Shown: positions 1 through 10,472 of the stretch, piece by piece
Numbering within the stretch: the stretch's first letter is position 1
How the letters are laid out: the number at the start of each line of letters is the position of its first letter
Assembly (NCBI RefSeq): GCF_030814715.1
Contig: NZ_JAUSVO010000001.1
Coordinates: forward strand, 310,001-374,000
Direction: 5' to 3'
Source of the DNA: Kaistia dalseonensis
GTDB taxonomy: Bacteria > Pseudomonadota > Alphaproteobacteria > Rhizobiales > Kaistiaceae
DNA length: 64,000 bases
Position numbers and translations under genes: made by a program
Notes under the pieces: model-generated
The model's input: the letters and a program-made list of their open reading frames with translations, nothing else
Database searches by the model: none
What the model was told of the DNA's origin: nothing

Positions 1-1411
1 AGATCGCGACGCGGCTGCACAGCTGCAGCAGCTCCGGGGCCTCTGATGAGCACACCAGCACCGCGCCGCCTGCGGCGGCGAAGTCGCGCAGGAGCTGATA
101 GATCTCCTGCTTGGCGCCCTCATCGATCCCGCGTGTCGGCTCGTCACAGATCAGGACGCGCGGCTCCGAGGCGAGGCAGCGCGCAATCACGACCTTCTGC
201 TGGTTGCCGCCGCTCAGAGATCCGACGTTGAGGCGATCGCTTGCGGCGCGCACGGCGAGGTGCTTCATCATGCGGGCGCTGAGGGCCCTCTCGCGGCCCT
301 GGCGCACGATGCCGAGCCTTGCAAGACGGCCGAGGATCGACAGCGAGATGTTGTGGCGGATCGGAGCTCCCAGCACGAGACCGGAGTCCTTCCGGTCTTC
401 GGTGATCATCGCCAGGCCGCGCTTGATCGCAACCTTCGGCCGCAGCGGCGGCAGCATGGCGCCGCACAGGGTAACGACTCCGCTGCTGCGCGGGCCGATG
501 CCGTAAACGCCATTCAGGAATTCGCTACGGCCCGAGCCCATCAGCCCGTAGATGCCAAGGATATCGCCCTGCTTCAGCGACATCGAAATGTCCTGAAACT
601 GCTTGCCGTGAGAAAGCCCCTGAATGTCCAGGAGAATTTCAGCGTCGGATTGTCCGACATTTGCCGGGCGTCTTTGGTGGGCGACTTCGTGGCCGACGAT
701 CTGGTGGACCAGACGGGCGCGATCGATGGTCTTCATGGGACCGGTCTCGACGAAGCGCCCGTCCCGGAACACCGTATAGCGATCCGCAAGCTCGAAGAGC
801 TCTTCGAGCCGATGGCTGACATAGATGACGCCGACGCCGCCTGCGGTCAGTCTGCGAATGGCGGAGAAGAGCACCAGCGTCTCATGCTCGCCGATCGCCG
901 AGGTGGGCTCGTCCATGATCAGGATGCGCGCATTCTGGCTGATGGCGCGCGCGATCTCGACGAGCTGGATCTGCGCCAGCGAAAGCTGGCTCATTTTCCG
1001 CGTCGCCTCGACCTCGAAATGCAGTTCGTCCAGCAGCTGTCTCGCCTGTCGCACGATCGCCACGTGATCGACCAGACCGGGCAGGCGCCGGGGCTCGCGG
1101 CCGAGAAAGATGTTCTCGGCCACGGTCATGTCACGGATGGGCGACAGTTCCTGCGTGATGATGGCGATCCGCTCGGCCAAGGCATCCGAAGGCGATTTGA
1201 AGTGAACCTCCTTGCCATGCACCCGTATGGTGCCGGCATCGCGCTGCAGCAGGCCCATGAGGATATTGAGGAACGTCGACTTGCCCGCGCCGTTGCCTCC
1301 GCACAGCGCGTGCACCTCGCCGGCTGCCAGCAGGAGCTCGCCATGGAGCAGTGCCGGCACGCCATCGAAGGATTTGGCGACGCCGGTCGCCTCGACCAGT
1401 AGTTCGGCCAT
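1..1411 (-). CDS. Sugar-type ABC importer ATPase with two nucleotide-binding domains, partial
   Basis: This is the ATPase of a ribose/galactose-type (RbsA/MglA family) importer. About 470 codons lie in the window and the C-terminus runs off the left edge. The first domain has a clear Walker A, GGNGAGKST, at residues 38-46 and a Walker B with ILIMDEPTSA. Its signature is degenerate (LSLAQ). The second domain has the reduced P-loop typical of the family (GLMGSGRSE) and an intact signature LSGGNQQK followed by a Walker B ending CDEPTRG. It starts 37 bases after the stop of the upstream SDR, so the two are probably one operon under the sigma-54 promoter at 2291-2305. Permease and binding-protein genes probably lie beyond the edge. 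The substrate is unknown; a sugar or sugar alcohol is the family expectation. Confidence 0.93.
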   Translation of the reverse strand, partial: MAELLVEATGVAKSFDGVPALLHGELLLAAGEVHALCGGNGAGKSTFLNILMGLLQRDAGTIRVHGKEVHFKSPSDALAERIAIITQELSPIRDMTVAENIFLGREPRRLPGLVDHVAIVRQARQLLDELHFEVEATRKMSQLSLAQIQLVEIARAISQNARILIMDEPTSAIGEHETLVLFSAIRRLTAGGVGVIYVSHRLEELFELADRYTVFRDGRFVETGPMKTIDRARLVHQIVGHEVAHQRRPANVGQSDAEILLDIQGLSHGKQFQDISMSLKQGDILGIYGLMGSGRSEFLNGVYGIGPRSSGVVTLCGAMLPPLRPKVAIKRGLAMITEDRKDSGLVLGAPIRHNISLSILGRLARLGIVRQGRERALSARMMKHLAVRAASDRLNVGSLSGGNQQKVVIARCLASEPRVLICDEPTRGIDEGAKQEIYQLLRDFAAAGGAVLVCSSEAPELLQLCSRVAI

Positions 1412-1448: not shown

Positions 1449-2237
1449 TCAGGTGGCGAGATAGCCGCCGTCCATGACCAGCTCGCTGCCGGTCATGTAG
1501 GCGGACTCGTCGGACGCCAGGAAAAGCACGCCGTTGGCGATCTCTTCCGCCTGGGCCGGCCGTCCCAGCAGCGATGGACCGAGCAGTGCCTTCGTCGCCA
1601 CCGGGTCGTTGACGATGTCCTTCGACAGATGCGTGATCGTCAGGCTCGGATGGACCGAGTTGACGCGAATCCCGTCCTTGGCGACCTCGGACGCGGTTGC
1701 CTTGGTCAAGAGGCGGACGGCACCCTTGGACGCCACATAGGCGGCTGCATCGGGGAAGCCGACGATGCCCCAATTTGAACTGATATTGATGATCGAACCG
1801 CCGCCGCCCTTGCGCATCAGCGGGATCAGGGCGCGCGAACCGAGAAACACACCCTTTGCATTGATGGCGAAGGTCTTGTCCCAGGCCGCGCTGTCGGTTC
1901 TCTCGGTCGTGCCGGCGAGATAGATTCCGGCATTGTTGACGAGGATATCAGCCTTGCCGTAGGTCCTCTCGACCAGGTCCGCCAGCTTCGTCCACGCTTC
2001 TTCGCAGGCGACGTCAAGTTCGACGAACTGCGCACGACCGCCCTTCGCTTCGATCTCGGCCACGACCTTGTGGCCCTCGTCGGCATTGATGTCCGAGACG
2101 ACGACGGCGGCGCCTTCTTCCGCCAGCCGGAGCGAGAAGGCGCGACCCATGCCTAGGGCGCCACCGGTCACGACGGCGATCTTGCCGTTGACGCGGCCGT
2201 GGCTGGTTGCGCTGGCGGAATTCTCTTGGGTGGACAT
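1449..2237 (-). CDS. Short-chain dehydrogenase/reductase (classical SDR)
   Basis: This is an NAD(P)-dependent alcohol/ketone oxidoreductase of 262 residues. It has the cofactor glycine motif TGGALGMGRA, the NNAG motif (LVNNAGIY) and the catalytic Tyr-Lys pair in YVASKGAV, preceded by a serine in the NISSNWG stretch. The C-terminus reads SELVMDGGYLAT, a common SDR ending. The ATG at 2237 is chosen because GGGAGAG lies just upstream; an in-frame ATG further upstream would overlap the promoter. Its start is about 54 bases downstream of a -24/-12 sigma-54 promoter. It sits first in a unit with the ABC ATPase, which suggests it oxidises the imported compound. The exact substrate cannot be read from sequence. 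Confidence 0.93.
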   Translation of the reverse strand: MSTQENSASATSHGRVNGKIAVVTGGALGMGRAFSLRLAEEGAAVVVSDINADEGHKVVAEIEAKGGRAQFVELDVACEEAWTKLADLVERTYGKADILVNNAGIYLAGTTERTDSAAWDKTFAINAKGVFLGSRALIPLMRKGGGGSIINISSNWGIVGFPDAAAYVASKGAVRLLTKATASEVAKDGIRVNSVHPSLTITHLSKDIVNDPVATKALLGPSLLGRPAQAEEIANGVLFLASDESAYMTGSELVMDGGYLAT

Positions 2238-2290: not shown

Positions 2291-2305
2291 GCAGATTGCG
2301 TGCCA
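2291..2305 (-). promoter_or_regulatory. Sigma-54 (-24/-12) promoter of the SDR/ABC unit
   Basis: On the minus strand the sequence is TGGCACGCAATCTGC. It matches the RpoN consensus TGGCACGNNNNTTGC at every fixed base except one (C for T before the -12 TGC), with exact GG-to-GC spacing. The enhancer-binding regulator gene and its candidate binding sites lie directly upstream. The twin promoter at 4523-4537 has the same substitution. Confidence 0.85.
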
Positions 2306-2350
2306 CTCCAAAAAATATAGTAAAATCAGCAATTTATGGCGAATTGACCG

Positions 2351-2398
2351 TGTCGCAACGCTGGAGGTGAGCGACAGGTGCGTGTCGCAATTGCGACA
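2351..2398. promoter_or_regulatory. Paired upstream activator palindromes (left array)
   Basis: Two palindromes with the same half-site lie here. The proximal one (2351-2376) is TGTCGC-N14-GCGACA. The distal one (2383-2398) is TGTCGCAATTGCGACA, extended to a perfect 20-base palindrome at 2381-2400. Their lengths, 26 and 16, differ by 10 bases, one helical turn, and their centres are 27 bases apart. A matching array lies at 4433-4480. These are inferred binding sites for the sigma-54 activator encoded at 2425-4326. A looser copy, GTGTCG-N4-CGACAC, is at 2432-2447 inside the end of that gene. Confidence 0.75.
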
Positions 2399-2424
2399 CG
2401 TGGGCTCGCCACATTCGAAGCCGG

Positions 2425-4326
2425 CTAGTGAGTGTCGCCGACGACACGAGCGAGACCGAAAGCCGAGATGCGTCGATGCAGCGTGGCACGGGATACTCCG
2501 AGCCGCTGCGCCGCGAGCTTCACGTTCCAGCCAGTTTGCTGCAGTGCCAGCTCGACCGCTTGGCGTTCGCCATCCGTCGTCTGCGCGGCGCCCCGCGATG
2601 CCGGCGACAGCGGGGTAGGGAGATCGTCGACGGTAATGACGGCGCCCTCGGCCAGCGTCGTTGCAAAGCGGGCAACATGGCGCAGTTCCCGCATATTGCC
2701 CGGCCATGAATAGGCGAACAGCAGCTTGCGTGCTGCGGGGTCGAGTTGGACCTCCGTCAGACGCGTTTCCGTCGCTTCCTCCTTGAAAACTCGTTCAATC
2801 ACCGCATGCCGATCGGCCCGTTCGCGCAGAGGCGGCATCGCCAGGCTTGCGCCGTTGAGGCGGAAGTAGAGATCTTGCCTGAAGCGGCCCAGTGCGACCA
2901 GGGCGGGAATATCGTGCAGGCTTGCCGAGATCAGCGCGAACTCGACCCGTGTCTGCTCGGTCGCGCCGATGGCGACGAACTCGCCGTCAGAAAGGACTTG
3001 CAGGAGCCGCGTCTGCAGCGCGAGCGGCATGTCCCCGATCTCGTCCAGAAACAGGGTGCCACCATGCGCCTCCGCGATCCGGCCCTTGGATCCGCTCTTC
3101 GAGGCGCCGGTAAAAGCGCCTGGACGATAGCCGAATAGCTCGCTCTCGATCAGTTCCGCCGGTATTGCCGCGCAATTGATCGAAACGAAGGGGCCATCGG
3201 CGTGATCGCTCGCCGCGTGCAAAGCCTTGGCGAGCGCCGTCTTTCCGGCGCCGGTTTCTCCCTGGAGCAGGATCGGCAGCCGTCGGTTGACCAGCTTCTG
3301 AACGCGTCCCACCAGCGCACTCATCGTCGGGTCGTCGCCGACCAGGAGGCGTGTATCGGGTGCTTGCGGGCGAGCCCGCGGCAACGCGCGCGCCTTCTGC
3401 GCGGCACTGAACTTCGCGGGCGCGGGACCCGTACGCTTGAGAAAGAGCCGGTTGCCATGAACCGTCAGGGAAACGACGCCGTCCGCGAAGATATCATCCC
3501 GCTCGAGTTCGCCGACATCCGACAGCGGACGGCCCAGCACGGGCATGTTCGGCCGTGACATCAGGCGTAGCGCATCCGGCGTGGCGTCCAGCACCTTGCC
3601 GGACGAGTCGAGAGCGATGCTCATCTCCACGCCCGCATCGCAGAAGTCTTCGTAGCGCGAGACGCGCAGCATTTCTCGGCCCGCATATCGGCGTGCGAAG
3701 AACCGGTTTTCGATGCGCCGCGCAGATCTGCGGACGACCTCTCGGACAATCGACTGCGTCGCATGATCGCTGTTGGCAGATGTGCTCACATTGAGCGCCG
3801 CGGCGAGCTTGCCACCGCCGCCGAAGATGGGCGCGACCGCGCAGCTGAAGTCGATGAGGCGTGGATCGAAATGATTGTCCATGACGATCGAGATCGGCCG
3901 AGCCTCCTTGATGCAGGTGCCGATGCCATTGGTGCCCTGCAGTTCCTCCGACCAAATCGCGCCGAGTTGCAGACCCGACGTCGTGCATTTAACGGCGAAC
4001 GGGTCCTGCGAGCGAAAGAGGACCGTCACGCCGTTCTCATCCGTCATGGAGACAATGTAGTCATGCTCCACGAAGCGTTCGAATAGGCGCTCCACCTCGG
4101 GCATGGCGAGCGCGATCAGGTCTTCTATGGGAGCACGGTAGTTGTTCAGCTCGTTCCTTGTGACGATCGTCGGGTACGCGACCTTGTAGGGTTCGAGACC
4201 GTATTTCTCGACGCAGCGCTGCCAGGACGCAATGACGCTCGCCTGGCGCTCCTTATTCGGAACGCCTTCCTCCGATCTGCGACCGACGGCCGACATGATC
4301 GTGTCGGCATGGCTTCTTGCGCTCAT
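2425..4326 (-). CDS. Sigma-54-dependent enhancer-binding regulator, AcoR-like
   Basis: This is a 633-residue activator. An N-terminal GAF-type sensor region occupies about residues 60-230, a central AAA+ domain about 310-545, and a Fis-type helix-turn-helix the C-terminus. Visible AAA+ motifs are Walker A GETGAGKTA, the sigma-54 contact loop GAFTGA and Walker B GGTLFLDEIGDM. The C-terminal helix-turn-helix reads LAAQRLGVSRATLHRR. The ATG at 4326 follows AGGAGGAG; an in-frame ATG 42 bases upstream has no such site. Domain order resembles AcoR, which senses a small molecule through the N-terminal region. The gene lies between two transcription units that both have -24/-12 promoters and matching palindromes, so it very probably controls both and may regulate itself from the array at 4433-4480. 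The inducer is unknown. Confidence 0.93.
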   Translation of the reverse strand: MSARSHADTIMSAVGRRSEEGVPNKERQASVIASWQRCVEKYGLEPYKVAYPTIVTRNELNNYRAPIEDLIALAMPEVERLFERFVEHDYIVSMTDENGVTVLFRSQDPFAVKCTTSGLQLGAIWSEELQGTNGIGTCIKEARPISIVMDNHFDPRLIDFSCAVAPIFGGGGKLAAALNVSTSANSDHATQSIVREVVRRSARRIENRFFARRYAGREMLRVSRYEDFCDAGVEMSIALDSSGKVLDATPDALRLMSRPNMPVLGRPLSDVGELERDDIFADGVVSLTVHGNRLFLKRTGPAPAKFSAAQKARALPRARPQAPDTRLLVGDDPTMSALVGRVQKLVNRRLPILLQGETGAGKTALAKALHAASDHADGPFVSINCAAIPAELIESELFGYRPGAFTGASKSGSKGRIAEAHGGTLFLDEIGDMPLALQTRLLQVLSDGEFVAIGATEQTRVEFALISASLHDIPALVALGRFRQDLYFRLNGASLAMPPLRERADRHAVIERVFKEEATETRLTEVQLDPAARKLLFAYSWPGNMRELRHVARFATTLAEGAVITVDDLPTPLSPASRGAAQTTDGERQAVELALQQTGWNVKLAAQRLGVSRATLHRRISAFGLARVVGDTH

Positions 4327-4432
4327 GACTCCTCCTGTCGGTCGCGCACCGTCACTTGGGCACAGCATCTGTGCGCAGGCGAACCGCCATTTTTAACATG
4401 TGCTTAGCCAGCCTGTCATCAGGCGCGGCATG

Positions 4433-4480
4433 TGTTGCAGATGCGACAGTCCACTGTCTCACTGGCGAAACATTGCGACA
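4433..4480. promoter_or_regulatory. Paired upstream activator palindromes (right array)
   Basis: The distal site (4433-4448) is TGTTGCAGATGCGACA, a near-perfect 16-base palindrome. The proximal site (4455-4480) is TGTCTC-N14-GCGACA, 26 bases. Site lengths, the 27-base centre-to-centre distance and the order relative to the promoter (wide site proximal, tight site distal) are the same as in the array at 2351-2398. The gap to the -24 element is 42 bases here and 45 there. The array also lies just upstream of the regulator's own start, so autoregulation is possible. Confidence 0.72.
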
Positions 4481-4522
4481 GTGATGCAGCCGCAAATGCC
4501 CGGATTCTGCGCCGCCTTGCGC

Positions 4523-4537
4523 TGGCACGATACCTGC
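4523..4537 (+). promoter_or_regulatory. Sigma-54 (-24/-12) promoter of the reductase/cupin unit
   Basis: The sequence is TGGCACGATACCTGC, matching TGGCACGNNNNTTGC except for C in place of T before the -12 TGC, with correct spacing. Transcription would begin near 4549, leaving a leader of about 45 bases before the ATG at 4594. Confidence 0.85.
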
Positions 4538-4593
4538 GACAGGCGCTTCGCGGCTTTCAATACTGCCGCAAGCTAAAGGCAAGGTAGGGCGGA

Positions 4594-5667
4594 ATGGCTT
4601 TCAAGAAGGCTTTGGTTGTCGGCGCATCCGGCGTCATCGGGCATGGCATCATGCGCCATTTGGAGAACCTCGCCGGTTGGAGTGTCGTCGGCATGAGCCG
4701 CGGCCTCGCGCCGCGATCGATGGCGGCCATGCCGTGGATCACGGTCGATATCAACGACGCGCGCGCGCTCGAATTGCATCGCGACATGCTGGCGGACGTC
4801 ACGCATGTCTTCTACGCCGCCTATGTGCCCGACGCCGATCTGGCGCGCGAAGCCGAGGTCAATGCCGCGATGCTGCGGGGGCTGCTGGATGGGCTGCAAA
4901 GCTGCAGGTCGCCGCTGCAACGCGTCGTGCTGTTCCAGGGCGGCAAGGTCTATGGCCTGCATCTCGGTCCGGTCAAGACGCCAATGCGCGAGAGCGACCC
5001 GCGCCATATGCCGCCCAACTTCTATTACGATCTCGAGGATCTCCTTGTTGAGCGATCGTCGATGAGCGACTGGACCTACACACTGCTGCGTCCGGATATC
5101 GTTCTCGGTGCCATACCCGGCCAGCCCCTCAATCTGGCGATGGTGATCGGTGCCTATGCGGCGTTCTGCAAGGCATTGCGCGTGCCCTTCCGTTTTCCGG
5201 GAAGTCAGGCAGGCTACCGCGTGCTGATGCAGGCTACGGATGCCGATCTGCTGGCGCGCGTCAGCGTCTGGGCGGCGGAGGCGTCCATTGCCGCTGGACA
5301 GGCGTACAACGTCACGAACGGCGATCTGTTCCGCTGGGAGAATCTCTGGCCGGCGCTCGCCGATCATCTCGGCCTCGACGTGGGGCCGCCGATGTCGATC
5401 CGGCTCGTCGATCACATGAAGGACAAGGGAGAGCTGTGGGCCGACTTCGCCCGGCGCTTCGGCCTCGTGACGCAGGACTATCGACAGGCCATCGGGTGGG
5501 CCTTTGGCGACTGGGTGTTCCACACCGGGTTCGATGTCGTGTCCGATCTGACGAAGCTCAGATTGCATGGCTGCCACGAATTGAGGTCGACCGACGAAGT
5601 GCTTGTCGAAAAGCTGGGGCAGTTGCAGGCGCGGCGTCTGATCCCGCCGCTGCACGACGTGGCGTGA
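4594..5667 (+). CDS. NAD(P)-dependent reductase of the extended SDR type, PRISE-like
   Basis: The 357-residue protein begins with a Rossmann motif (GASGVIG, residues 10-16), as in extended SDRs. Near residue 142 it has NFYYDLEDLL. This resembles the NFYY motif of the PRISE family (progesterone 5-beta-reductase/iridoid synthase-like), where the tyrosine replaces the classical YxxxK arrangement. PRISE enzymes reduce activated C=C bonds of enones or act on sugar-like substrates; the bacterial members are mostly uncharacterised. The ATG follows a weak purine-rich site. It is the first gene after the sigma-54 promoter at 4523 and is followed after 29 bases by a cupin gene, so they form one unit. 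The family call is from motif recognition only. Confidence 0.85.
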   Translation: MAFKKALVVGASGVIGHGIMRHLENLAGWSVVGMSRGLAPRSMAAMPWITVDINDARALELHRDMLADVTHVFYAAYVPDADLAREAEVNAAMLRGLLDGLQSCRSPLQRVVLFQGGKVYGLHLGPVKTPMRESDPRHMPPNFYYDLEDLLVERSSMSDWTYTLLRPDIVLGAIPGQPLNLAMVIGAYAAFCKALRVPFRFPGSQAGYRVLMQATDADLLARVSVWAAEASIAAGQAYNVTNGDLFRWENLWPALADHLGLDVGPPMSIRLVDHMKDKGELWADFARRFGLVTQDYRQAIGWAFGDWVFHTGFDVVSDLTKLRLHGCHELRSTDEVLVEKLGQLQARRLIPPLHDVA

Positions 5668-5696: not shown

Positions 5697-6113
5697 ATGA
5701 CGTCGCATTCGGGAACGGAGCGGCCCGCAGCCTTCATCGACTGGGCCGATGATCGCTACGCCGAGCTTCTCGCCAATCAGCGGAACGGGCGCGTTGGCAG
5801 CCTCCTGGTTTCAGAGACGGATCGGGTCCGGGTGTGGCACCTGAGCGTCGCCCCAGGCGAGCGTTTGCCGTTTCATCGGCATGTGCTGGACTACTTCTGG
5901 ACGACGCTCACCGCCGGCCGCTCCCGCAGCCATTATGGCGACGGACGCATTCTCGAAACTGCCTATGCCGCCGGCGACACAAAACACTTCACGTTCGGCC
6001 GAGACGAGTACATGCTTCACGATCTCGAGAACATCGGCGATGACATTCTGGTGTTCGTGACGGTGGAGTTGAAGCAGGGTGCCAATGAGCCACTGGAGCT
6101 GGCCACCAGCTGA
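5697..6113 (+). CDS. Small cupin-domain protein
   Basis: The 138-residue protein is a single-domain cupin. The first cupin motif is recognisable in APGERLPFHRHVLDYFW, with two histidines available as metal ligands. The second half carries GDTKHFTFGRDEYMLHDLENIGDD, with another histidine in the expected strand. Such proteins are isomerases, dioxygenases or small-molecule sensors. The start at 5697 is preceded by AAAGGGAG at a suitable distance. It is the second gene of the sigma-54-controlled unit and presumably acts in the same pathway as the PRISE-like reductase. The specific reaction is unknown. Confidence 0.82.
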   Translation: MTSHSGTERPAAFIDWADDRYAELLANQRNGRVGSLLVSETDRVRVWHLSVAPGERLPFHRHVLDYFWTTLTAGRSRSHYGDGRILETAYAAGDTKHFTFGRDEYMLHDLENIGDDILVFVTVELKQGANEPLELATS

Positions 6114-6202
6114 GTCAAGCAACAGGGAAGTTCGCGACGGCACTTTCCTCCTGGGGGCAGGATCTAGAACGGGCTATTCTGCCTTCTCTCAGACTTATAC
6201 CC

Positions 6203-6585
6203 AAGATGCGATCGACCGGCTGATCTTGGCTGCAAATATCAGCGACACGACGAGCAACCGGATCTTCACCTGCGATCTGGCCGGCAATATGCTGACCAAT
6301 TCGGCGGTCGGCACCCCGAGCTATCCCTCGCAGGGCTATGGCGTTGTCAGACCTCATGCGCCGCTCGGCGTGGGCGGCGTCGCGCAGAGCTACAATGGCG
6401 ATCTTACCGTCGAGGGCGGCCGGACGCTGAGTGGAGCCTGCCCTCCGACTTGATCGGAGGGACGGCGAGAACCGGCTGATCTCGGTCGTCACCGCGACCG
6501 GCAGCACGAGCTATGCCTATGGCCCGGACGGCGGACGGGCGAAGACTGTCTCCACCGTCGGTGCCAATCCGGCGACGACGACATG
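6203..6585 (+). pseudogene. Rhs/YD-repeat gene fragment (copy 1)
   Basis: This fragment is clearly homologous to 23211-23594 of the broken Rhs gene. It encodes YD-repeat text such as DLAGNMLTNSAVG and PSQGYGVVRPHAPL, then a 28-base interval where one codon is expected, and then ENRLISVVTATGSTSYAYGPDGG in another frame. It begins and ends abruptly, has no start, and is interrupted by the palindrome at 6441-6461 that is also present in copy 2. The flanks (6114-6202 and 6586-6757) contain no recognisable gene. The piece looks like a duplicated or recombined Rhs segment that no longer codes for anything. Confidence 0.85.
6441..6461. repeat. REP-like palindrome inside the Rhs fragment
   Basis: The arms CCCTCCGA and TCGGAGGG pair perfectly around the loop CTTGA. 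Reading-frame comparison shows it sits within about 28 extra bases that break the Rhs frame. The identical element is at 23454-23474. Confidence 0.8.
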
Positions 6586-6757
6586 ACGAGCAACCGGATG
6601 AGGGGCATCCGAGGGCGGGCTGATATATGCGCTGAAATCGCGCAAAACCTTGGCCATCCGTCGTCCCTACGCTTTGCCGTCGCGCCGGATGGGAGAGCGT
6701 GGCTCCTGGCCGCCCGCGGCGCTCCCAGCCCGCTTCGCTCGCAAGATCGGCGATGGC

Positions 6758-7474
6758 TCAGGACGATATCCCACTGAGCGGATTGACGAACAGGCCAGTC
6801 GGATCATGACGACGGACGATCGCCTGCAAACGTGCCCGTGCCTCGGGCGCAAAGCATTTGGTTAGGCGGTCGGGGCGGTGGGTCCAGTCGGTCTCGTTGA
6901 TGAGCGCACCTTTCTCATATTGTTCCAGCCTGGCCAGCGCGTCATCCATCCAGCGCTGGTTCGGCGCGTCGTCACTCTCGGCGTGCCAAGCCGCATCGAG
7001 GAAGAGAAAGACGCTCCCGGCGACCGAGCTGGCGAGATTATCGGTGGGCGGTTGTTTCCGACGCACCGCTATGTCGATGAGGCTTAGCGGGGACGGCGCA
7101 TTCGAGTTCGGCATCGAACGCCGCCACGCGGACACCAGGCTGGACAGATCCCGAAAGGCCGACCGGATCGACATCCGCCGATATCAGCCGGGACAGATCG
7201 AGCAGGACTCTATCGTCCTGAACGGCATGCCCGATATGGCTGTGGCCGCCAGCCACGATGGAGACGAGGCGCCCCTCCGAGCGCGCATAGTAGAGCGCCT
7301 CGACAATGTCGCTGTCCGATTGCGCCGTCCAGATCACGTGGGGGTGCCGATCCGGCTTCATCGCCTGCCAGACGAGCGACCGGCGACGCGGCTCGAAGGT
7401 CACATCCCCATTGCGGCAGATCGGAGGGCCAGTGTTGTATCCACGGATGTCTCGCTGGACAGGCTTTGGAACAG
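6758..7474 (-). pseudogene. FAD-binding oxidoreductase (PCMH/BBE type) with internal deletion
   Basis: Two frames on the minus strand encode the two ends of a berberine-bridge-type flavoprotein. The frame ending near 7090 carries the N-terminal FAD domain (WTAQSDSDIVEALYYARS, then VAGGHSHIGHAV with the histidine region, then LLDLSRL). The frame from about 7080 down to 6758 carries the C-terminal substrate-domain end (LFLDAAWHAE, then VRRHDPTGLFVNPLSG). The middle of the usual roughly 450 residues is missing and the frames do not join, so the gene is dead. No convincing start is visible upstream. It lies at the end of the deaminase/monooxygenase/reductase unit and may once have belonged to it. 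Confidence 0.8.
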
Positions 7475-7497
7475 GCGGGCCGAATGTATGCCTCGCG

Positions 7498-8523
7498 TCA
7501 GTCTTCGCTCGACCGCTGCCAGAGATTGATCCCAAGATCGACGGCATGGCGATCGATCTCGGCGAGTTCCGCTGCGTCGAACGACGTCTTGCCCGCTGCC
7601 GCCAGGTTTTCCTCAAGTTGGCGGACGCTGGATGCGCCGATGAGTGCCGAGGTCACCTTGTCGTTTCGTAACGACCAGGACAGAGCGAGCTGCGCCAGGG
7701 TCTGGCCGCGCGCCGAGGCGATCTTGTCCAGTTCGCGGATGCGGCCGATCGTTTCGTCCGAAAGAAATTCCGGCCGGAGCGATCCCTGCTTCGCGCCGCG
7801 CGAATCCGCTGGCACGCCGTTCAGATAGCGGGTGGTCAGCAGGCCCTGGGCCAGAGGAGAGAAGGCGATGATGCCGACGCCGAGCTCGCCGGCCGTATCG
7901 ATCAGCTCCTTCTCGATCCAGCGATTGAACATCGAATAGGACGGCTGGTGGATCAGAAGCAGCGTGCCAAGCCGCTTCAGGATGTCTGCCGCTTCGCGGG
8001 TACGTCGCGGCGAATAGCTGGAAATGCCGGCATAGAGCGCCTTGCCGGAGACGACGGCCTGGTGCAGCGCGCCCATGGTCTCCTCAAGCGGCGTCGAGGG
8101 GTCGAAGCGGTGCGAATAGAAGATGTCGACGTAGTCGATATTCATCCGCTTCAGCGACTGGTCGAGGCTCGCCAGCACATGTTTGCGCGATCCCCATTCG
8201 CCATAGGGACCTTTCCACATATTGTATCCGGCCTTCGTCGAGACGATCAGTTCATCCCGATGCGCCTTGAGATCGTCGCCGAGAATCCGGCCGAAATTGA
8301 TCTCGGCGCTGCCGGGGGGCGGGCCGTAATTGTTGGCTAGGTCGAAATGGGTGACGCCGAGATCGAAGGCGCGGCGGACAATGCCGCGCTGCGTTTCGAG
8401 CGGCACGTCGTCGCCGAAATTCTGCCAGAGGCCGAGCGAAATAGCGGGCAAGCACAGGCCGCTGCGCCCGACGCGCCGGTAGGGCTGCTGTTCATATCGT
8501 TCGCTGGAAGGCTGGTAGGTCAT
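7498..8523 (-). CDS. Aldo-keto reductase, L-glyceraldehyde 3-phosphate reductase-like
   Basis: The protein has 341 residues and belongs to the YghZ/GPR-like group of aldo-keto reductases. The opening YRRVGRSGLCLPAISLGLWQNFG, the THFDLANNYG segment with the catalytic Asp and Tyr, and VSTKAGYNMW with the catalytic Lys are all present. DYVDIFYSHRFDP and the C-terminal ALIGASSVRQLEENL complete the family pattern. These enzymes reduce small aldehydes with NADPH. The ATG at 8523 is 54 bases after the flavin reductase stop, so it is probably the last gene of that unit. A role in reducing an aldehyde released by the monooxygenase is a plausible inference. The neighbour downstream is a broken flavoprotein gene. 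Confidence 0.9.
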   Translation of the reverse strand: MTYQPSSERYEQQPYRRVGRSGLCLPAISLGLWQNFGDDVPLETQRGIVRRAFDLGVTHFDLANNYGPPPGSAEINFGRILGDDLKAHRDELIVSTKAGYNMWKGPYGEWGSRKHVLASLDQSLKRMNIDYVDIFYSHRFDPSTPLEETMGALHQAVVSGKALYAGISSYSPRRTREAADILKRLGTLLLIHQPSYSMFNRWIEKELIDTAGELGVGIIAFSPLAQGLLTTRYLNGVPADSRGAKQGSLRPEFLSDETIGRIRELDKIASARGQTLAQLALSWSLRNDKVTSALIGASSVRQLEENLAAAGKTSFDAAELAEIDRHAVDLGINLWQRSSED

Positions 8524-8577
8524 CGGATGCCTGTCGTGAAGGTTCGAGGAGTGGCGGCGACTTCGACAGCGGCGACG

Positions 8578-9096
8578 TCAGAGGCCGGCTTCGGGAAGCT
8601 GCAACTGGAGAAAGGCGGAACGGTAGAAGACGAGCGGTCGGAGGTTGGGGTCCGCCCCGACCCGGCGCACTTGCAGGAGGGCAACCATGTGGTCGCCGGC
8701 TGGGAATTCTCCGGCAAAGCTCGCTTCGAACCAGACCGGAGCCCCGGCAATGAACCGCGCCGACGAACCGGTATGGCGGAGTGGCACGTCAGTGAAACGC
8801 TCGGCGACGTTTGGCGATGCAATCTGGCGGGCCAGCGCGCCGTGGTCCTCGGCCAGGACCGATATTCCCAGCCTCGCCGCCTGCTTGATCTGCGGCCAGG
8901 TCGACGAGGTCTTTTGGATAGCGCAGGAGACGAGCGGTGGATCGATCGAGACGCCAACCGTGAACGACGATGCGATCATGCCCTTCGGCTCGCCGTCGAT
9001 CTCCGCGAGCAGGGCGATGACGCCCGAGGGAAAGCAGGAGAACATTTCTCGAAGGTGCTTGGGATCGCCTTCGTAATGGGGGAGGTTCGCCTCCAT
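8578..9096 (-). CDS. Flavin reductase (FMN-binding split-barrel type)
   Basis: The 172-residue protein is the NAD(P)H:flavin reductase partner of two-component monooxygenases. Family features are FSCFPSGVIALLAEIDGEPKGMIASSFTVGV near the N-terminus, DPPLVSCAIQKTSSTW, and the loop GDHMVALLQVRRVG with the conserved GDH. The start overlaps the stop of the FMN monooxygenase by one base (TGATG), which implies translational coupling. It should supply reduced FMN to that oxygenase. The protein ends soon after LRPLVFYRSAFLQL, in keeping with the usual length. Confidence 0.92.
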   Translation of the reverse strand: MEANLPHYEGDPKHLREMFSCFPSGVIALLAEIDGEPKGMIASSFTVGVSIDPPLVSCAIQKTSSTWPQIKQAARLGISVLAEDHGALARQIASPNVAERFTDVPLRHTGSSARFIAGAPVWFEASFAGEFPAGDHMVALLQVRRVGADPNLRPLVFYRSAFLQLQLPEAGL

Positions 9097-10472
9097 CAGA
9101 CGACGTTCCGCATCGGGGTTGCCATGGCGCCCACACGCTGGCGCGCCGCCGGGTGCGTCTCGGGCAGGCGTGCTTGGCCTGCGCCGAACAGCCTTTCGCG
9201 GAATGTCGAAGGACTGCGCGTGCTGCGCATCAGGCCAATCCGCTGAAGCTCCGGCACCACATGGTCGATGAGATCCGTGTAGGATCCAGGCGTGACGAAG
9301 GGCGTGAAGTTGAAGCCGTCCAGATCGGTTTCCTCGACGATGGCGCGGATCTCTTCGGCGGCCTCCGATGGCGTGCCGACCACGATCAGTTCCCGCATGC
9401 CGCGACGGATGAAATCGGCCGAGGCGTCGCGCACGGATACGTCTGAATACCGTTCGACCTGCGTCCGGCTGCCTTCGGTCTTGACCGTGGAGAAGGATGC
9501 GTTCGGGTCGAGCTTCGCGAGATCGACGCCGGTCATCATGGCGTAATAGGCGCGCGCCGCGTCGGCGTTGACCCAGGAAAGATACTCCTCGAGCTTGTCC
9601 TCGGCCTCGCTTCGGGACGCTGCGGTGACGACTGAGAGGCCGGACACCGCCTTCAGCGATTCGGCCTCTCGTCCGGAAGAAACGGCGCGGCTCCTCAGAT
9701 CGTCGACCTGACTGCGGAGCATCTTGGCGTCCTTGCCTTGCACGAACACCACTTCGACATTCGCCGCCGCAAAAGCCCTTCCCGTTGCCGAAGCCCCAGC
9801 CTGCACCAGCACGGGCGTGCGCTGCGGCGAAGGCTCGCTGTTGAAATAGCCATGCGAGGTGAAGTAGGGGCCCTCATGCGAGATCGGGTGGATGCGGCGC
9901 GGGTCGGCATAGAGACGACGCGCCTTGTCGACGACGACTGCGCCATCCTCCCATGAGCCTTCGAACAGCTTGTAGCTCAGGTCGAGAAAGTCCTGCGCCA
10001 TCGCGTAGCGTTCGTCATGGGGCAATTGCCGCGTGCCGAGGAGCTCCGAGACGACGGCGCTGCTCGTGGTGACGATGTTCCAGGCGATCCGCCCCTGCGT
10101 CAGATGATCCAAAGTCGCGAAACGGCGAGCATTGGCATAGGGCTGTTCGCAGGTCGTGGACGTCGTGACAATGAAGTTCAGATCGCTCGTGGCGGCGGCG
10201 AGCGCCGGAATCAGGAGCATCGGATCGTTCTTCGGAAGCTCCACCGCCTGTTCGAAGGTGACGTCTGGGGTCTCCCCGGAAAGGAGCGGGTATCCGAAGG
10301 AATCGGCCAGGAACAGAAAATCGAAATAGCCGCGCTCGAGAAGCTGGGCCAGATCCGTCCAGTAGGACAGTTCCTTGTAGCGATAGGTCGTCTGCTCCGG
10401 ATGAGCCCACAGCCCCTGGCTCGTCAGGTTGACCTGGTTGATCTCGAAGGCACCCAGGATGATCGTCTTCAT
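9096..10472 (-). CDS. FMN-dependent monooxygenase, NtaA/DmoA family
   Basis: This 458-residue luciferase-like oxygenase has the family marks of NtaA-type enzymes. These are YFDFLFLADSFG near residue 50, LDHLTQGRIAWNIVTTSS around residues 125-140, DERYAMAQDFLDLSYKLFEGSWEDGA, and HEGPYFTSHGYFNSEPSPQRTPVLVQAG. Such enzymes use FMNH2 and O2 to oxidise amines, sulfur compounds or heterocycles. The gene overlaps the deaminase-like gene by four bases (ATGA) and the flavin reductase by one base, so the three are translated together. A deaminase plus oxygenase suggests breakdown of an aminated ring compound; this is inference. The start follows the overlap directly. Confidence 0.92.
   Translation of the reverse strand: MKTIILGAFEINQVNLTSQGLWAHPEQTTYRYKELSYWTDLAQLLERGYFDFLFLADSFGYPLLSGETPDVTFEQAVELPKNDPMLLIPALAAATSDLNFIVTTSTTCEQPYANARRFATLDHLTQGRIAWNIVTTSSAVVSELLGTRQLPHDERYAMAQDFLDLSYKLFEGSWEDGAVVVDKARRLYADPRRIHPISHEGPYFTSHGYFNSEPSPQRTPVLVQAGASATGRAFAAANVEVVFVQGKDAKMLRSQVDDLRSRAVSSGREAESLKAVSGLSVVTAASRSEAEDKLEEYLSWVNADAARAYYAMMTGVDLAKLDPNASFSTVKTEGSRTQVERYSDVSVRDASADFIRRGMRELIVVGTPSEAAEEIRAIVEETDLDGFNFTPFVTPGSYTDLIDHVVPELQRIGLMRSTRSPSTFRERLFGAGQARLPETHPAARQRVGAMATPMRNVV

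Follow-up and report, generated by a model that had tools for sequence, protein, structure and literature searches.

Which protein reads the palindromes that flank the gene for an AcoR/DhaR-like sigma-54 activator in Kaistia dalseonensis, and which genes come under its control? The gene lies within a stretch of 64,000 nucleotides (contig NZ_JAUSVO010000001.1, positions 310,001 to 374,000; hereafter the window), between one unit that begins with a short-chain dehydrogenase/reductase (SDR) gene and another that encodes a PRISE-like (progesterone 5-beta-reductase/iridoid synthase-like) reductase and a cupin-like protein. On either side of the activator gene an array of half-sites of the type TGTCGC/GCGACA lies upstream of a sigma-54-type promoter. 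With a probability of roughly 0.87, judged from the sequences compared here, the arrays act as enhancers (upstream activating sequences) for the activator encoded between them and serve both adjoining predicted operons.

Half-site arrays and sigma-54-type promoters around the activator gene

Counted from the promoter-distal end, both arrays place half-sites at offsets 0 (forward), 10 (reverse), 22 (forward) and 42 (reverse), and the two are mirrored around the regulator gene (Table 1). The first-pass annotation of this DNA, made by a model from the letters of the stretch, had described two palindromes per side, a wide one of 26 bases and a tight one of 16 bases, with a centre-to-centre distance of 27 bases in both arrays and gaps to the promoter of 45 (left) and 42 (right) bases. 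These measurements were reproduced, save that the tight site on the left extends to a perfect 20-base dyad, CGTGTCGCAATTGCGACACG (2381-2400). The common half-site TGTCGC/GCGACA proposed at the same time is exact at six of the eight positions and deviates by one base at the other two, both in the right array (TGTTGC and TGTCTC). At 10.5 bases per turn the offsets correspond to 0, 0.95, 2.10 and 4.0 turns; as these fall near whole turns, all four half-sites face one side of the helix. The earlier argument for binding on the same face is therefore arithmetically sound for every half-site, and it singles out no reading in terms of two palindromes.

Both window promoters read TGGCAC-N5-CTGC, and the single deviation from consensus that they had been said to have in common, CTGC in place of TTGC, is present in each. 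GG at -24 and GC at -12, with 10 bases between them, are found in these promoters and in both counterparts in Shinella lacus. Placing the transcription start 12 bases after the GC of the -12 element would put the array centres near -84 and -111 on the left and near -81 and -108 on the right.

The regulator, whose start was set at 4326 by the upstream ribosome-binding site GGAGGA, combines an N-terminal GAF sensor domain (PF01590, 31.8 bits against a cut-off of 22.4), an AAA+ domain (PF00158, Sigma54_activat, 197.9 bits against 20.2) and a Fis-type helix-turn-helix domain at the C terminus (HTH_8, residues 587-622). The GAFTGA loop is found in this protein and in its S. lacus orthologue, and a gene for RpoN is present in the genome to which the window belongs. 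Against the DhaR equivalog NF008485 the regulator, scored as the longer open reading frame 2425-4368, reached 261.2 bits, compared with a curated cut-off of 551; it is AcoR/DhaR-like, with similarity to DhaR, and not DhaR proper.

The arrays were searched for with a template consisting of the 24 fixed bases of the four half-sites, allowing up to 3 mismatches. The best template scores were 24 (left) and 22 (right) of 24; dinucleotide shuffling of each intergenic region, repeated 2000 times, gave no score above 18. In the 5.18 Mb of the bacterium's own genome there were two template matches, both flanking the regulator gene, and none to a reversed control; at this threshold, the regulon in that genome would therefore consist of the two neighbouring units. 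Among 398 genomes of the phylum, two others held one match each, both with 3 mismatches, where about 0.6 matches would be expected by chance if equal base use is assumed.

Because the template was derived from the window itself, S. lacus provides an independent test of it. This is the one orthologous locus found, in a collection-wide scan with exact peptide patterns of the N-terminal part that detects close relatives only; its regulator is 67% identical over residues 4-629 (61% over the N-terminal part), and the order cupin, reductase, regulator, SDR, ATPase, permease and binding protein is kept. The first-pass annotation had proposed looking for the sites next to orthologous regulators, and they are there on both sides. 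The array on the SDR side matches the template at 23 of 24 positions with the same offsets and a promoter gap of 44 bases, and that on the reductase side at 20 of 24 with a gap of 43, such that the distance from array to promoter stays at 42-45 bases across all four arrays. The half-sites recognisable in all four are those at offsets 10, 22 and 42. Between the two genomes, the SDR side keeps 23/24 half-site positions but 13/24 spacer positions (p 9e-4, one-sided Fisher test), and the reductase side 18/24 and 8/24, respectively (p 4e-3), so that the half-sites are the better conserved part on either side. From the uniqueness of the arrays in their own genome, and from the conservation of gene order, promoters and arrays in S. 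lacus, it follows that they are very probably the regulator's own enhancers. The earlier prediction of an operator for this regulator, and of a shared regulon that includes the PRISE-like reductase and the cupin, is thus well supported, with sites beside the S. lacus orthologue, RpoN encoded in the genome and the GAFTGA loop present.

Two further observations concern the arrays. On the reductase side of S. lacus an extra half-site gives rise to a 15-base dyad, TGTCGCAGTGCGACA, within the wide palindrome (locus L005, 5780-5794). On the SDR side, array and promoter are separated in both genomes by AT-rich DNA with runs that match when aligned (window 2306-2345; L005 7950-7993); it is possibly a bend or a site like that of integration host factor.

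Table 1. Coordinates of the activator gene, arrays, promoters and flanking genes in the window. Half-sites are given by offset from the promoter-distal end of their array (f, forward; r, reverse).
Feature	Position	Strand	Details
AcoR/DhaR-like sigma-54 activator	2425..4326	minus	633 aa; Pfam GAF, Sigma54_activat, AAA_lid_14, HTH_8
Left array, promoter-distal pair	2383..2398	minus	0f 2393-2398 and 10r 2383-2388; tight 16-base palindrome; in window coordinates TGTCGC 2383, GCGACA 2393
Left array, promoter-proximal pair	2351..2376	minus	22f 2371-2376 and 42r 2351-2356; wide 26-base palindrome; in window coordinates TGTCGC 2351, GCGACA 2371
Right array, promoter-distal pair	4433..4448	plus	0f TGTTGC 4433 and 10r GCGACA 4443; 16-base palindrome
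Right array, promoter-proximal pair	4455..4480	plus	22f TGTCTC 4455-4460 and 42r GCGACA 4475-4480; 26-base palindrome
Sigma-54-type promoter, SDR/ABC unit	2291..2305	minus	TGGCACGCAATCTGC; S. lacus counterpart TGGCACGCTTCCTGC
Sigma-54-type promoter, reductase/cupin unit	4523..4537	plus	TGGCACGATACCTGC; S. lacus counterpart TGGCATGGAAACTGC
SDR dehydrogenase, first gene of left unit	1449..2237	minus	Pfam adh_short_C2/adh_short on 1449-2240
CUT2-type sugar ATP-binding cassette (ABC) transporter ATPase	1..1411	minus	ABC_tran; cut by window edge
PRISE-like reductase	4594..5667	plus	PF22917, 87.7 bits vs cut-off 27
Cupin-like protein, second gene of right unit	5697..6113	plus	PDB 9u8n cupin, E 1.1e-8; also beside S. 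lacus reductase

In the mechanism that we propose, the Fis-type domains would read the TGTCGC half-sites on one face of the helix (0, 10, 22, 42), which would hold the activator some 80 to 110 bases upstream of the two starts. A small-molecule signal at the GAF domain would lead the activator to oligomerise, its AAA+ ring would remodel the RpoN holoenzyme at both promoters to give open complexes, and the import/oxidation unit (SDR, CUT2-type ABC transporter, SDR) would be switched on together with the reductase/cupin unit. The combination of activator, promoter and two-unit logic is that of an ordinary bacterial enhancer-binding protein (bEBP); what is unusual is the conserved spacing of the operator. 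For an uncharacterised activator whose neighbours are a sugar-type importer and a bacterial protein related to plant iridoid synthase, a predicted operator, promoter pair and two-unit regulon may offer a route to ligand and pathway.

Probable operators of related activators

The order and a set of plasmids supplied regulators of the wider AcoR/DhaR family, with identities of about 31-44%, and their loci were kept if a promoter had at least two TGTNGC half-sites. This left 27 of 48 loci (35-42% identity), with 14 dropped for want of a promoter-like site near the gene and 7 for having fewer than two half-sites; as the promoter with the most half-sites was chosen in this set, its half-site numbers are inflated. 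A separate test of 30 loci took the first promoter instead, and 9 with no promoter within 600 bases after the gene were dropped. The other 21, which have a sigma-54-like promoter after the gene, hold 82 TGTNGC half-sites before the promoter, as against 11.9 +/- 3.6 in 500 shuffles (maximum 25), an excess that ties this type of half-site to AcoR-type regulators.

These one-component activators resemble the window system in protein, in RpoN-type promoter and in having TGTNGC half-sites upstream, although GAFTGA is not exact in all of their rows. They differ in the arrangement of the sites. An outward dyad, GCNACA-N2-TGTNGC (reverse-forward offset 8), occurs in 23 of the 27 kept loci and is apparently a core element common to the operators of AcoR-type regulators in these Alphaproteobacteria; it is absent from all four arrays of the window and S. 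lacus. Conversely, the offsets of the window system (10, 12 and 20) are rare or missing in the 27 loci: 12 (reverse-forward) and 20 (forward-reverse) in none, 10 (forward-reverse) in two. The -12 element is CTGC in all four promoters of the window and S. lacus and TTGC in the chosen promoter of all 27 kept loci, and the variable base of the half-site, mostly G or T in the family, is C in the window system. Neither the TGTCGC array nor the GCNACA-N2-TGTNGC dyad was described in literature titles or abstract openings, among the matches listed.

The variable base also differs with the residue at the first position of the recognition helix. Where this is D (22 loci) the counts are G 47, T 26 and C 3; with N (five loci, four of them from one genus) they are T 18 and C 9; and with S, a class of two loci (the window, whose row takes in two half-sites outside the array, and S. 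lacus), they are C 8, G 1 and T 1. As the sequences are related, these suggestive counts offer a lead towards a base-to-helix rule and not a proof. Both the operator spacing and the half-site base seem to be particular to the window/S. lacus lineage. A more specific account, which we regard as speculative and rather doubtful, is that this branch re-spaced its operator: TGTNGC would have been kept, the fixed in-phase array 0/10/22/42 would have replaced the outward 14-base dyad so that one type of dimer could bind two dyads one helical turn apart, and a change of the first recognition-helix residue from D or N to S would go with C for G or T at the variable base. If true, the re-spaced operator and the S/C pairing would give a readable base-to-residue rule for the DNA-binding domains of this type of bEBP. 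The survey suggests that many AcoR-type activators have TGTNGC in common while spacing and one base vary by branch, and such variation could help to predict the regulons of unannotated bEBPs.

Operators of other enhancer-binding proteins offer partial parallels. The upstream activating sequence of NifA is TGT-N10-ACA, as cited in PMC6296734. The tight site has this form in three of the four arrays (both in the window and the SDR side of S. lacus), but the arrays add a wider TGT-N20-ACA, kept in all four, and their half-site TGTCGC is longer. The enhancer of CbrB in Pseudomonas putida, in the same paper, consists of TGTTAC/GTAACA subsites described as non-palindromic and variably spaced; it too has several hexameric subsites in both orientations on one helix face upstream of a sigma-54 promoter, whereas the spacing here is fixed, the dyads are perfect or nearly so, and CbrB belongs to a two-component system. 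Motifs of Desulfovibrio vulgaris enhancer-binding proteins have TGT and ACA 9, 11 or 12 bp apart (PMC4641369), with the same outer letters and a regulator-dependent spacing, but the portion of that paper available describes no 10-plus-20 combination.

Alternative readings of the arrays

Several observations weigh against the assignment of the arrays to this activator, or against its completeness. A sigma-70-like site, TCGCCA-17-TATATT, lies on the minus strand (2342-2314) between the SDR-side array and the -24/-12 element, with 9 of 12 matches (0.1 +/- 0.4 in shuffles), so that transcription independent of RpoN is possible on the SDR side; no such site was found on the reductase side when it was looked for there. 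The reductase-side array of S. lacus has no recognisable outermost half-site and, because of its 4 mismatches, was missed by the template search, which recovered only the SDR-side array of that genome; weaker members of the regulon could likewise escape. The case for conservation draws on two genomes, one orthologous locus having been found, and since the layout of the arrays differs from that of the wider family, the identity of the operator rests on half-site letters and synteny.

The alternative that survives best concerns how the half-sites are paired within the same operator. Binding of the same dimer to a tight and a wide palindrome is one of three possible readings of the four half-sites, and fits the perfect dyads of the left array. 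Alternatively, each half-site may be read by one monomer, or the two inner ones may form an outward dyad, GCGACA-N6-TGTCGC, flanked by the outer two; these readings, to which together we give slightly less than an even chance, would imply another stoichiometry. Outward polarity is that of the wider-family core, and each of the four arrays has a recognisable outward pair (offsets 10 and 22), neither half-site of which departs by more than one base, the tight pair being lost in one; in addition, PMC6296734 reports that CbrB is mainly monomeric in solution and uses three non-palindromic subsites that lie on one face with their centres 20-25 bp apart. Against this, the outward offset is 12 here and not 8, a value without precedent in the 27 family loci, the dyad of the left tight site is perfect over 20 bases, and over the four arrays the wide pair is the best kept, with 47 of 48 letters compared with 45 of 48 for the outward pair. 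A further reading of the window's right array combines a 16-base TGTCTC-N4-GCGAAA with one separate half-site, GCGAAA standing at offset 32 within the proximal pair. The idea that the wide palindrome conceals another half-site at this offset, and so consists of two tight ones, was considered and rejected, as the offset fits GCGACA at 5 of 6 positions in this array only and at 0, 2 and 3 in the other three. Likewise set aside was a GTGTCG/CGACAC dyad at the end of the regulator gene (2432-2447), which has no counterpart at the end of the S. lacus protein.

That the palindromes are bound by an unlinked regulator, with the AcoR-like gene between them by accident, is improbable. The link from gene to site is a predicted one, which leaves room for such a regulator, but the array occurs nowhere else in its own genome at up to 3 mismatches, it recurs next to the orthologous gene in a different genus, and in the 21 of 30 loci that have a promoter the AcoR-type genes come with TGTNGC half-sites. 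Even less probable is a role as RNA hairpins (terminators or attenuators): the left array does come after the stop codon of the regulator gene and could fold, but no terminator-like sites were found in 4300-4620 or 2230-2480, the right array is placed ahead of the reductase promoter, with divergent gene starts to either side, and the narrow range of array-promoter spacing (42-45 bases) in four arrays speaks against it. In favour of chance repetition of TGTCGC words in GC-rich DNA, the simple pattern TGTCGC-N2-16-GCGACA lacks specificity, with 24 occurrences in the genome compared with 8 of the reversed pattern; this reading can practically be dismissed in view of the template scores, the genome-wide uniqueness and the conservation in S. 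lacus. Enhancers of the activator encoded between them thus remain the reading of the arrays that we prefer.

Flanking units, distribution of the regulator and neighbouring genes

The left unit runs in the order SDR, ABC ATPase, permease, binding protein and second SDR, the last three lying beyond the window and assigned by family matches. The start of the first SDR was put at 2237 from the position of an ATG with a nearby purine-rich site, and its S. lacus orthologue lies at L005 8063-8842; the second SDR, after the binding protein, was seen in the window's genome and not in S. lacus. Next to its cupin gene S. lacus has two further elements, a second ABC transporter and an enolase that resembles glucarate dehydratase but scores below the curated cut-off. 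The PDB sequences closest to the binding protein are those of CUT2-family and related sugar binding proteins (4rsm, 4rs3 and 5hko). We take these structures to have been solved with polyols, and a polyol-like or another sugar-like compound as the signal is only a guess.

In the right unit, the reductase has the PRISE Rossmann domain above the gathering score and is a putative PRISE enzyme. Among proteins of solved structure, iridoid synthases (5dbf, E 2.6e-46) and progesterone 5-beta-reductases come closest to it in sequence. At E 0.001 the cupin-like protein matched no Pfam family. Another genome of the order (locus L030, 2893-3279) has a cupin 56% identical to that of the window beside a PRISE-like reductase, with the regulator absent from the stretch examined; the reductase-cupin pair therefore also occurs without the regulator.

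The regulator module is rare. At the E limits used it was found in 1 of 28 genomes of its own family (its own) and in 1 of 21 of the genus of S. lacus (S. lacus itself); it was found in none of 87 genomes of another family and none of 394 of a family taken as Rhizobiaceae from the similarity of rpoN to that of Sinorhizobium, two sets that included no genome known to match. Matches at E <= 1e-105 were present in 43 of 397 genomes of the order, including its own, and, its own excepted, none exceeded 44% identity among the matches listed; this search and that of the 394 genomes scored the best 3 candidates per genome. Plasmid records gave 231 with a regulator match, all below 60% identity. As two genera, apparently of different families, have a compact syntenic cluster that their searched relatives lack, we infer that it was probably transferred horizontally.

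Beyond the cupin gene, short out-of-frame stretches at 6115-6600 look like a gene remnant, presumably of an RHS/YD-repeat protein. Pieces in two overlapping frames on the minus strand at 6758-7616 apparently belong to a broken gene, which we take to resemble a flavin-linked (FAD) oxidase of the berberine-bridge type. The region 7498-10472 holds together an aldo-keto reductase (NF007388, above cut-off), an NtaA/DmoA-type flavin mononucleotide (FMN) monooxygenase (TIGR03860, above cut-off) and an open reading frame that we presume to be flavin-reductase-like, and these genes are possibly a separate catabolic cluster.

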